Shown: piece after piece, positions 45,504 to 48,828 of the stretch
Layout: every line of letters begins with the position of its first letter
How positions within the stretch are numbered: the stretch's first letter is position 1
DNA from: Thermomicrobiaceae bacterium
Lineage (GTDB): Bacteria; Chloroflexota; Chloroflexia; Thermomicrobiales; Thermomicrobiaceae
Reading direction: 5' to 3'
NCBI GenBank assembly: GCA_014874455.1
Contig: JADBJL010000022.1
Location: 1-54,889, forward strand
DNA: 54,889 bases
Made by a program: the position numbers and the translations under genes
The notes under the pieces: model-generated
The model's input: the letters and a program-made list of their open reading frames with translations, nothing else
Database searches by the model: none
What the model was told of the DNA's origin: nothing

Positions 45504-45830
45504 GTGAGGCAGCGGATGCAGCGGACGCAAATCCTGCTGGAGCCGGAGCAGTATCGAGCACTGGTCGAGCTGGCCCGGCTCGAGGGGCGCAGCCTGTCCG
45601 AGCTGCTGAGGGAGCTGGTTCGCGACTACCTGGCTCAGCGGGATCAGGCTGCCGACATGATCCGGGCACGGCAAATGGCCGCCCTCGAGCGAATCCGCCA
45701 GCACCGGCAGGCGGTGCTCGAGCGTCGCGGTGGCGTGCCGCTCGACATCGACGTGGCGGCACTCGTCGCGGCGGTACGGGAGGAGCGAGATGCAGACATC
45801 TTGGCCGGCTCGACGGACGGTCGTCGTTGA
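45504..45830 (+). CDS. vapB: Ribbon-helix-helix antitoxin (VapB type)
   Basis: 108 residues from GTG 45504 with TGGAGGCGAGAGC upstream. The N-terminal 45 residues form the RHH fold: RTQILLEPEQYRALVELARLEGRSLSELLRELVRDYLAQ, a DNA-binding beta strand plus two helices. The C-terminal half is a helical, Arg-rich toxin-neutralising region (MIRARQMAALERIRQHRQAVLERRGG). The toxin gene overlaps its end by 41 bases. A 12-bp palindrome upstream fits autoregulation. The pair forms a type II toxin-antitoxin system. Confidence 0.88.
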   Translation: MRQRMQRTQILLEPEQYRALVELARLEGRSLSELLRELVRDYLAQRDQAADMIRARQMAALERIRQHRQAVLERRGGVPLDIDVAALVAAVREERDADILAGSTDGRR

Positions 45831-46248
45831 CGCCAGCCTCGCGATCTGGGTCGTGGTGCCGGTCGTCTCTCCGGTTGACCCCCTCGATTTCCTTATCCAG
45901 TGGCGGCGCGAGGGGGTCAGGGTAGTGGCGCCGATGCTCTGGTTGGCTGAGAGCGCATCGGCACTGCGGGCGCTCGTTCACACTGGTGCCATCTCCCTGG
46001 AAGAAGGCCGCCGCGCGTTACACGACCTGCTGGCGTTGGAGGTAGAGCTCCTGCCGATGACATCTGAGCAAACGCGCGCTGCGTTCGAATGGGCCACACG
46101 ACTCGGGCAGCGGCGGGCCTACGATGCCTTCTACCTCGCGCTCGCCGAGGAGTTGGGGGCTGAACTCTGGTGTGCGGATCAGCGCCTGGCCACTAGCGCT
46201 CGGCAAGCGGGCGCAACCTGGGTTCAGTCGATCGCCCATAGGCTTTGA
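45790..46248 (+). CDS. vapC: PIN-domain toxin (VapC type)
   Basis: 152 residues from ATG 45790 with GGAGGAGCG upstream. The PIN nuclease acidic residues are visible: VVVDASLAIWVVVP (first Asp), LWLAESASALRALV (Glu), RRAYDAFYLALAEELGAELWCADQRLA (two Asp residues). The length and motif order match VapC endoribonucleases, which cut initiator tRNA or other RNA when freed from VapB. Its start lies inside the antitoxin gene, so translation is coupled. The frame is open further upstream (to 45730), but that start has no support. Confidence 0.92.
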   Translation: MQTSWPARRTVVVDASLAIWVVVPVVSPVDPLDFLIQWRREGVRVVAPMLWLAESASALRALVHTGAISLEEGRRALHDLLALEVELLPMTSEQTRAAFEWATRLGQRRAYDAFYLALAEELGAELWCADQRLATSARQAGATWVQSIAHRL

Positions 46249-46300
46249 CCCCCATGAAGCGCACCAGACTGAGCCAGCACCCCTGACGCAGCGGAGCCCC

Positions 46301-46329
46301 TCGCCAGCGGAGGCGAAATCGGCTATACT
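46301..46329 (+). promoter_or_regulatory. Probable promoter of the serine-leader/serA unit
   Basis: TATACT at 46324-46329 with a weak -35 (TCGCCA, 46301-46306) at 17-base spacing. Transcription would start near 46336 and produce a 240-base leader before serA. Confidence 0.5.
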
Positions 46330-46406
46330 CCGACTCGACAGTTGCCGATCGTCAAGAGTGAGCGCGGATACTGGCGCGCCGCTTGGACGACCGCAAGGAG
46401 GATCGA

Positions 46407-46613
46407 ATGCAGCGCCTGTGCTCTTTCGCTTCGCTGCCCTACAGCATGCCGCTCAGCGGATGGTGCTCGGTGTCCTCCCGCTCCGGTCGCGGCGCCAGTA
46501 GTCCCTCCGGATCCAGTCGCCGTCCGGGGTTCCCGGACATGTCGATGAAGTCTAGACTGGACTGGAGGGAACGACGTGCAGAAGCCAATCATCCGTCTCG
46601 CGCTCGATCTTGA
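46407..46613 (+). CDS. Serine-rich leader peptide overlapping the start of serA (candidate)
   Basis: 68 codons from ATG 46407, with AAGGAGG at 46395-46401 five bases upstream, a stronger ribosome site than that of serA itself. It begins MQRLCSFASLPYSMPLSGWC and 13 of the first 37 residues are serine (TCT, TCG, TCC, AGC and AGT codons are all used). The frame continues past the serA start and stops at TGA 46611-46613. The serine codons at 31-37 overlap a perfect complement of the serA ribosome site (46502-46508). I read this as a candidate serine-sensing leader ORF that controls the downstream phosphoglycerate dehydrogenase gene; it has no recognisable domain. Confidence 0.6.
   Translation: MQRLCSFASLPYSMPLSGWCSVSSRSGRGASSPSGSSRRPGFPDMSMKSRLDWRERRAEANHPSRARS
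46502..46570 (+). promoter_or_regulatory. Mutually exclusive RNA helices controlling serA (predicted attenuator)
   Basis: TCCCTCC (46502-46508) is the exact complement of the serA Shine-Dalgarno GGAGGGA (46564-46570); with neighbours the helix reaches nine pairs including one G-U. The segment 46505-46511 can instead pair with 46523-46529 (one G-U), and 46522-46528 with 46532-46538 (7-base stem, 3-base loop). These helices share bases and cannot all form. A ribosome paused at serine codons 31-34 of the leader would cover the anti-Shine-Dalgarno segment. Confidence 0.55.
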
Positions 46614-48828
46614 CGGTGTATTGACAGAACACCCCGCCCCGCTCGCCCAGGCGGCGAACCGCGCGCTGGGGATGCAGCTTCCAGACCACGCCTTCGTCGA
46701 CTCCGCCGGGTGCAACGTGCCGGTCGCCGTGCGCGAGTGGGTCTACGGGCCTGGCGGCCCGGCGAGCCTGCTCGAGCCCGCCCCGCGGGCTCAGCAGCTC
46801 CTCCAGCGCCTGCTGGAAACCCTCGACCCGGACAACGTGTGGATCGTCACCGCCCGGCCAGCACGCTCCCGCCCGGTGGCCGAGGAGTGGCTCCGGCGCC
46901 ACCGGTTCCCAGCCTGCCGCATCGAGTTCGCCGACGACAAAGTCGCCGTCGCTCGTTCGCTCGGCATCACGCACGCGATCGAGGACAGCCAGCGCCACGC
47001 CGTGAGCTACGCCCGTGCCGGTATCGCCTGCTTCCTGCTCAGCGACGCGCCTGCGCCGGCCGACGAGCCGCCGTTCATTGTGCGGGTACCGGATCTGGAA
47101 CGCGCGGTCGAGCAGATTCTGGCACTGGCCGGCACCACGACCGCAGCGCCGGCCCGCCCGCAGGAGCGCTGGCGCGAGGGCAGCGACAGCGAGCCGCGGC
47201 GCAAGCGCATCGTCGTCAGCGACCTGATCGACGAGAAGGCACGCCAGCGACTGGCAGCCGAAGCCGAGGTCATCGACGTCGATGGGCGAGACCGCACGGC
47301 GCTACTGGCGGCTCTCGAGGACGCCGATGCGTTAATCGTGCGGAGCGAGACCCAGGTCACGCGGGAGGTGCTGGCAGCGGCACCGAAACTCCGGGTTATC
47401 GCTCGAGCGGGCACCGGAGTCGACAACATCGACCTCGATGCGGCCACCGAGGCGGGTATCCTGGTGCTCAACGCGCCCGGGGCGAACGCCGTCTCGGCGG
47501 GCGAGCATACCATCGCGCTGATCCTGGCGATCGCGCGCTGCTTGCCAGAAGCCAACGCCAGCACCCATAGCGGCCGGTGGGAGCGCAAGCGCTTCAAGCC
47601 GTTCGACCTCAAGGGCAAGACCGTCGGTATCGTCGGGCTGGGGCGTGTCGGCTCGGTCGTCGCGCAGCGCCTGCGTGCCTTCGAGGTTCGCTTGCTCGGC
47701 TACGACCCGTACATCACGCGCGAGCGCTTCCTCCAGCTCGGCGTCGAGCCTGTCGACTACGAGACGCTGCTGGAAAACGTCGATATCGTCACCTTCCACG
47801 TGCCGGCGACTGCAGAGACGTACCACATGCTCGACGCCGAGGCGATCGCCCGGCTGAAGCCCGGCGCGATCGTGATCAACTGTGCCCGCGGCGATGTCGT
47901 GGACACAGTGGCGCTGGCAGAGGCCCTCAAGCGTGGGCACCTCGCTGCCGCCGGCCTCGACGTGTTTCCGGAGGAGCCTGCCTACACCAGCCCGCTCTTC
48001 GGGCTGCCCAACGTCGTGCTGACGCCGCATATCGGTGGCTCCAGCAAGGAAGCGCTGGAGGCGGTGGGGGAGATCATCAGCGCCACCACACTGGCTGCCT
48101 TGCGCGGTGAGGTCGTGCCCAACGCGGTCAACCTGCCGGCCGCGTCGCTCCAGGCGCCCGAGCTGCTCCGCCTGACCCAGGTGGCCGACGCCGCCGGGCA
48201 TCTGATCGCCGTCCTCCAGCCCAACCGGCCGAGCACCTTCGCCGTCACGGTACGAGGGCAGGTGGCGGCTGACATCGCGGAGCACGTGACGGCGGCTGCG
48301 CTCAGCTCGGCGCTGCGCCGCTGGTCGGATCGCCGGGTAACACCGGTGAACGCCAGGCTGGTAGCTGCCGAGCTCAACCTGCTCGTCAGCGTGCGCTTCG
48401 ATCCGAGCGCGGCGGTGATCCCGGAGTTCAGCTTCGAGGTCGACGGCGAGTCGCCGCACCACGTCACGGTGCGCTGGGATCGTAAGGACGCTGGCATCAT
48501 GGAGGTCGACCGCTTCTCGCTGGAGCGACCTCTCGCCGGGCACATGCTGATCACGCACCACTACGATCGCCCAGGGATCGTGGGCCGGATCGGGACGATC
48601 CTCGGCCGCTACGAGGTCAACATCGCCGGGATGCAGGTCGGACGGCACCACCGGGGCGGCGAGGCGATCATGGTGCTCAACGTGGACGACCCGATCCCGG
48701 AAGAGGCGCTGGCTGAGATCCTGACCATCCCCTTTATCTCGACGGCCTACGTGGTCTCGCTGCCTGAGCCGGTGCCGCAGATGGCCGGGCGCCCGGTCAG
48801 GACGGCGTTCAGCCGTCCTGCGGACTGA
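46576..48828 (+). CDS. serA: HAD-phosphatase/D-3-phosphoglycerate dehydrogenase fusion
   Basis: 750 residues from GTG 46576 with GGAGGGA five bases upstream. Residues 1-160 are an HAD fold: motif I LALDLDGVLTEH (D11, D13), motif II VTAR (T92), motif III lysine K122, motif IV IEDS (D137); closest in look to 5'(3')-nucleotidase-like HADs. After a low-complexity linker (185-209), residues 210-750 are long-type SerA: AGTGVDNIDLDAAT, Rossmann GIVGLGRVGSVVAQR, NCARGDVVD, catalytic His in LTPHIGGSS, an allosteric substrate-binding domain and a C-terminal ACT domain (HHYDRPGIVGRIGTILG) for serine feedback. The first enzyme of serine synthesis, oxidising 3-phosphoglycerate with NAD. The HAD part could be a phosphoserine phosphatase or proofreading phosphatase (inference). 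Confidence 0.93.
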   Translation: MQKPIIRLALDLDGVLTEHPAPLAQAANRALGMQLPDHAFVDSAGCNVPVAVREWVYGPGGPASLLEPAPRAQQLLQRLLETLDPDNVWIVTARPARSRPVAEEWLRRHRFPACRIEFADDKVAVARSLGITHAIEDSQRHAVSYARAGIACFLLSDAPAPADEPPFIVRVPDLERAVEQILALAGTTTAAPARPQERWREGSDSEPRRKRIVVSDLIDEKARQRLAAEAEVIDVDGRDRTALLAALEDADALIVRSETQVTREVLAAAPKLRVIARAGTGVDNIDLDAATEAGILVLNAPGANAVSAGEHTIALILAIARCLPEANASTHSGRWERKRFKPFDLKGKTVGIVGLGRVGSVVAQRLRAFEVRLLGYDPYITRERFLQLGVEPVDYETLLENVDIVTFHVPATAETYHMLDAEAIARLKPGAIVINCARGDVVDTVALAEALKRGHLAAAGLDVFPEEPAYTSPLFGLPNVVLTPHIGGSSKEALEAVGEIISATTLAALRGEVVPNAVNLPAASLQAPELLRLTQVADAAGHLIAVLQPNRPSTFAVTVRGQVAADIAEHVTAAALSSALRRWSDRRVTPVNARLVAAELNLLVSVRFDPSAAVIPEFSFEVDGESPHHVTVRWDRKDAGIMEVDRFSLERPLAGHMLITHHYDRPGIVGRIGTILGRYEVNIAGMQVGRHHRGGEAIMVLNVDDPIPEEALAEILTIPFISTAYVVSLPEPVPQMAGRPVRTAFSRPAD

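Follow-up and report, generated by a model that had tools for sequence, protein, structure and literature searches.

The serA locus of this genome raises the question of whether a gene of serine synthesis can be controlled by the translation of a short serine-rich leader open reading frame (ORF) that precedes it and runs into it. The window, that is, the whole stretch of DNA analysed, is a 54.9-kb contig from the 3.37-Mb genome of a hot-spring bacterium (G000) belonging to the family Thermomicrobiaceae. The SerA protein encoded there shows 88–96% identity to its counterparts in three congeneric genomes, including Thermalbibacter longus.

The leader ORF, serA and the regulatory elements of the region lie on the forward strand. 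The leader comprises 68 codons (46407–46613, with ATG at 46407) and has the translation MQRLCSFASLPYSMPLSGWCSVSSRSGRGASSPSGSSRRPGFPDMSMKSRLDWRERRAEANHPSRARS. It is preceded by the Shine-Dalgarno (SD) sequence AAGGAGG at 46395–46401, with a predicted anti-SD pairing energy of −11.2 kcal/mol, and by a probable sigma-70-type promoter at 46301–46329, consisting of TCGCCA and, after 17 nt, TATACT at 46324–46329. This was the single promoter-like match in a scan of positions 46200–46700, against 0.1 expected. The first 37 leader residues include 13 serines, located at codons 6, 9, 13, 17, 21, 23, 24, 26, 31, 32, 34, 36 and 37, and codons 21–37 (46467–46517), which include AGT AGT CCC TCC, make up the putative regulatory serine-codon run. 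The TGA stop codon of the leader (46611–46613) lies within serA, which starts with GTG at 46576 and extends to 48828, the two frames overlapping out of phase by 38 nt. The first-pass annotation, made from sequence alone, had claimed a 68-codon ORF with a ribosome site and 13 serines in 37 residues, placed before serA and ending inside it. All of these claims held, and the downstream gene was confirmed at the equivalog level as encoding phosphoglycerate dehydrogenase. No protein family matched the leader itself.

The profile matches of SerA include TIGR01327 (528 bits, with a cut-off of 454), PF02826, PF00389 and PF01842, and the protein is composed of an N-terminal HAD-like domain, the phosphoglycerate dehydrogenase part and a C-terminal ACT domain. 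Residues 1–195 (46576–47160) have a HAD-like fold, modelled by AlphaFold with a pLDDT of 93, but no Pfam match. The nearest folds are the class B acid phosphatase AphA and deoxyribonucleotidase, with SerB ranking lower. The invariant residues D11, D13, T92, K122, E136 and D137 suggest an active phosphatase, which remains a prediction from these residues. The fusion of HAD-like and SerA domains was seen in three families of Thermomicrobiales (f1, which is Thermomicrobiaceae, f3 and f5) and in no other families of the class; it might possibly join the first and the last steps of serine synthesis. Just 5′ of the leader, two overlapping ORFs at 45504–46248 resemble, judged by eye, a VapBC-like pair with an antitoxin of the ribbon-helix-helix type and a toxin of the PIN-domain type.

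The single genome provides only weak, suggestive evidence that the leader is genuine. The occurrence of 13 serines in 36 residues has a probability of about 1e-8 with a 5% serine background and about 2e-5 with the 10% rate of alternative frames. However, spurious serine-rich ORFs are common in the GC-rich DNA of the window: four of its 46 short SD-led ORFs contain at least eight serines per 20 codons, the leader being the only one to reach nine. It is the comparison across the family that is decisive.

The order-level search covered 61 genomes. Within the family, six genera were represented, namely the genus of the window (g1), Thermomicrobium (g5), Sphaerobacter (g4), and the genera g2, g3 and g6, with 19 serA loci having a readable upstream region; the family genomes G012 and G024, which lack a full serA match, are incomplete assemblies. 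A serine-rich leader with an SD sequence and an ATG start was present in all 19 loci and in all six genera, with 8–14 serines in its densest 20 codons. TATACT or TATCAT was also found 61–96 nt upstream of the leader ATG in 19 of 19 loci. Ten different leader-to-serA distances occur (151–205 nt), each of them 1 mod 3, and the leader invariably ends 26–41 nt past the serA start (19/19). An open leader frame in all six genera was estimated to have a chance probability of about 2e-5 over the full leader length, and of 0.009 over the part that follows the serine run. Beside serA, no comparable leader was found in other families of the order or in 17 scanned loci from other families of the class. 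A DNA search with 400 nt gave matches at serA loci only, and a search for copies at other genes with a 17-mer pattern allowing two mismatches gave no more matches than its reversed control, the pattern being uninformative. The serine-rich leader before serA is thus real and conserved in the family. A lack of conservation of the ORF or of the SD complement in close relatives had been set beforehand as a finding that would refute the proposal; this test was passed, with conservation in 19 of 19 loci and co-variation between genera, and the end of the leader inside serA proved universal in the family.

The codon composition of the leaders differs markedly from that of the gene they precede. Serine accounts for 21–36% of leader codons versus 3–5% of serA codons. 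AGT reaches 23–40% in leaders versus 0–6% in serA (g1, g2, g4, g5 and g6), and in g3 it is TCA that is preferred (59% versus 9%). In the window, AGT and TCC are over-used in the serine run and uncommon in serA. Leaders of attenuation systems typically show biased regulatory codons (PMC1183508). No conservation of the peptide is seen from one genus to another, and the leader dN/dS amounts to 0.8–1.06 in g1, g4 and g5. In g3, a dN/dS of 0.20 (32, 33 and 96 changes at the three codon positions) indicates purifying selection, falling on the N-terminal stretch MVRTMFLNSTAVAGLTPRMTTAG, which argues for translation of the leader in that genus. The restriction of such selection to g3 suggests that the frame, the serine codons and the RNA weigh more than the peptide.

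The serine run is complementary to the ribosome-binding site of serA. The sequence TCCCTCC at 46502–46508 is perfectly complementary to the serA SD sequence GGAGGGA at 46564–46570, as had been claimed previously, though it falls in codons 32–34 and not 32–35. The claimed spacing of 56 bases was about right, with 55 bases lying between the two, and the pairing is longer than was supposed. The anti-SD arm UCCCUCCGGAUCCAGUC (46502–46518), inside the serine run, and the SD arm GACUGGACUGGAGGGA (46555–46570), which contains GGAGGGA, form a helix of 16 pairs with one bulged A, and the folding model pairs the SD arm of the window with the serine run at a probability of 1.00. According to the same model, the serA SD pairs with codons 28–38 in the serine run in 18 of the 19 loci. 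In g1, g5 and g6 a common block, AGUAGYCCCUCC, pairs with GGAGGG, the helices containing 16, 12 and 11 pairs, respectively, and both sides have changed at three helix positions (U-A/U-G/C-G; G-U/G-C/A-U; C-G/U-A). The local SD of g4, g3 and g2 pairs with different portions of the serine run.

UCC-rich serine runs by their nature resemble anti-SD sequences, which counts against the attenuator reading given below. Two kinds of comparison addressed the pairing. In a swap test, with row and column effects taken out, the pairing of each leader with the SD of its genus was ranked against reassignments to the SDs of other genera. The own-genus assignment was the best of 720; it still came first of 120 whichever genus was omitted, and was the best of 6 when g2, g3 and g4 were taken alone. 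In the same-peptide control, the peptide was kept and synonymous codons were redrawn. Pairing exceeded these controls in g1 (p 0.002), g6 (0.002), g5 (0.002–0.015) and g2 (0.015), as well as in one g3 species (0.027), but not in g4 (0.30–0.47) or in the other three of four g3 species (0.27–0.45). The covariation count on the nine-pair core was not significant (102 of 500 shuffles), because seven of the nine pairs never vary. On this comparative and computational evidence alone, the lock on the SD has good support in four genera; in Sphaerobacter it is no more than plausible and unproven.

In the minimum free energy structure, the hairpin GUCCGGG-GUU-CCCGGAC (46522–46538) is situated in the loop that the sequestering helix closes, and its sequence is kept in the four genomes of the genus of the window. 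A segment of the 5′ UTR (46369–46382) is able to base-pair with the 5′ half of the serine run (46485–46500), enclosing the leader SD. The own-genus pairing of this helix ranks 17 of 720 swaps, which is weaker support than that for the serA SD helix. It is possible that the long-range helix of 46369–46401 with 46485–46500 controls initiation of the leader. No intrinsic terminator, sought as a stem-loop followed by a U run, was detected in 46200–46700.

The effect of a ribosome on this folding was modelled by a walk in silico, in which, for every transcript, a stretch the size of a ribosome was kept unpaired at one codon after another during folding. In the free RNA, the accessibility of the serA SD was 0.00–0.04 in g1, g5 and g6, and the SD was closed in two g3 species too; g4, g2 and some of g3 had values of about 0.3 or more, the SD being partly open already. 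The SD opened mainly when the A site was in or beside the serine run or when the ribosome was on the SD itself. Serine codons occupied 69 of 144 opening positions versus 91 of 503 others, although the sequences are related and a p value cannot be taken literally. In this model alone, the dependence on ribosome position was clear in most g1, g5 and g6 sequences and in two g3 sequences, and partial elsewhere, including g4 and g2. In Thermalbibacter there was almost no opening at the serine codons themselves, which accounted for none of its six opening positions. A walk at 65 °C gave a broadly similar picture.

It is likely that the leader is a serine-responsive, ribosome-mediated translational attenuator. 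The promoter-like site, the SD-led leader, the serine run with its SD complement and the frame extending past the serA start are shown by sequence and comparison; that ribosomes stall, in which direction this acts and that serine is the signal are inferences, made without expression, ribosome-profiling or mutational data. When seryl-tRNA is charged, ribosomes would read the leader without a pause, run over the serA start out of frame and finish 26–41 nt inside serA, and behind them the serine run would re-pair with the serA SD and keep it closed. When charged seryl-tRNA is scarce, a ribosome would stall in the serine run and cover the anti-SD arm, so that a second ribosome could initiate serA at the freed SD; the stalled ribosome would also block later ribosomes from sweeping over the serA start. 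The serine codons would then act both as the sensor and as the sequestering strand. The earlier claim that stalling at serine codons covers the anti-SD and allows serA to be translated is supported to this extent, by comparative and computational evidence. The universal overlap with serA suggests, but does not prove, that ribosomes finishing the leader help to keep serA off. The bolder reading, in which the sensor codons are the anti-SD and the overlap is also functional, with leader-finishing ribosomes occluding the serA start and stalling relieving both effects, may be correct, but we would not at present favour it.

Several rival explanations deserve consideration. Translational coupling without serine sensing would mean that the SD helix is opened, and serA licensed, simply by ribosomes passing along the leader, the serine run being merely a sequence that pairs with the SD. 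In its favour, the walk exposes the SD also when a ribosome reaches the codons just 5′ of it, UCC codons resemble an anti-SD, and the leader ends so close to the serA start (26–41 nt past it) that re-initiation is conceivable. On the other hand, serine is enriched outside the paired arm as well, in codons that do not pair with the SD core (AGT, TCA and TCG), the g3 serine run is mostly TCA, and such leaders were encountered only ahead of a gene for serine synthesis; this reading is therefore considered unlikely. Transcriptional control, in which stalling or fast passage on the leader alters Rho access or RNA polymerase pausing and not serA initiation, is compatible with the lack of an intrinsic terminator in the serA region, and Rho has been proposed for the terminator-less cysteine leaders of Actinobacteria (PMC1262725). 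However, the conserved pairing involves the SD itself, which points to initiation, and this possibility seems very unlikely. Hungry-codon frameshifting into serA, suggested by the constant +1 relation, was rejected because almost every locus has a stop codon in the serA frame after the serine run and ahead of the serA start, the exception being g6.

The leader might also code for a small protein with a function of its own, or for an arrest peptide that senses something besides seryl-tRNA. The purifying selection on the g3 N-terminal peptide (dN/dS 0.20) speaks for this, but the lack of conservation between genera, the values of 0.8–1.06 in g1, g4 and g5 and the absence of a family match make it highly improbable. 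A chance serine-rich ORF with a chance SD complement could be considered, since serine-rich short ORFs are not rare in the DNA of the window (4/46). It is contradicted by the comparison (19/19 loci, six genera, a constant frame and co-varying pairing) and can be practically ruled out. Known RNA elements were sought at serA as well, and neither T-box RF00230 nor serC RNA RF00517 matched there, even at E values up to 5. A T-box leader was observed upstream of leuA in the same genome (L117:3266-3492, reverse strand), matching RF00230 with 77.5 bits and an E value of 5.6e-17, under the gathering score of 93 bits; this match indicates that the permissive search was able to detect a T-box, had serA one. 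A leucine version of the serA leader at leuA of this genome was considered and rejected, the T-box being present instead.

Attenuators based on leader peptides have been described for many amino acids, and the serA leader, if the attenuator reading is true, fills the serine gap. It would also place ribosome-mediated attenuation in Chloroflexota, a phylum for which no report was found in the literature searched, and would represent a compact design in which one RNA stretch is both codon sensor and ribosome-site lock. The resemblance of UCC (serine) and CUC (leucine) codons to an anti-SD suggests that the genetic code eases the evolution of such switches. One genome would then use two mechanisms for the same task, apparently a T-box for leucine and a leader peptide for serine.

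A serine leader peptide, or one overlapping its target gene, was not found in the literature searched, which largely excluded subscription papers, so that absence is unproven; the earlier statement that no serine-sensing version was known is consistent with this. The serine starvation response of SinR in Bacillus subtilis relies on serine codons (PMC3862929), but these are in the regulated gene itself, with no leader and no RNA switch. The serine T-box upstream of serA in Paenibacillus polymyxa raises serA expression with uncharged seryl-tRNA (PMC8002221); unlike the proposed leader, it binds tRNA directly and controls a terminator, and serA of the window has no T-box. The serC RNA motif (RF00517) of alphaproteobacteria is a hairpin for which a role in masking the ribosome-binding site of an operon for serine synthesis has been proposed (PMC1273637), but no leader ORF is described for it and serA of the window has no Rfam match. 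In the classical transcription attenuation of trp, his, leu, thr and ilv, starvation-sensitive leader codons choose between two RNA structures, as is proposed here, whereas the serA switch sequesters the SD and no terminator was found. In antibiotic-induced translational attenuation of the ermC and cat type, a ribosome stalled on the leader frees a downstream SD. The signal for the serA leader would instead be the supply of seryl-tRNA, and the serA leader ends inside its target gene. The closest known system is the LEU element upstream of leuA in Actinobacteria, where a run of leucine codons pairs with the leuA SD (PMC1262725). The two systems share a leader ORF whose codon run specifies the amino acid being made and base-pairs with the SD of the regulated gene, and both lack a classical terminator. 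The LEU element serves leucine and leuA in another phylum, whereas the serA leader has serine codons; the LEU element also has a pseudoknot or an alternative hairpin, and an overlap of leader and leuA is not described in the sections bearing on it (PMC1262725). The type of mechanism is already known, while the serine version and the overlap with the target gene appear, within the literature searched, to be new.
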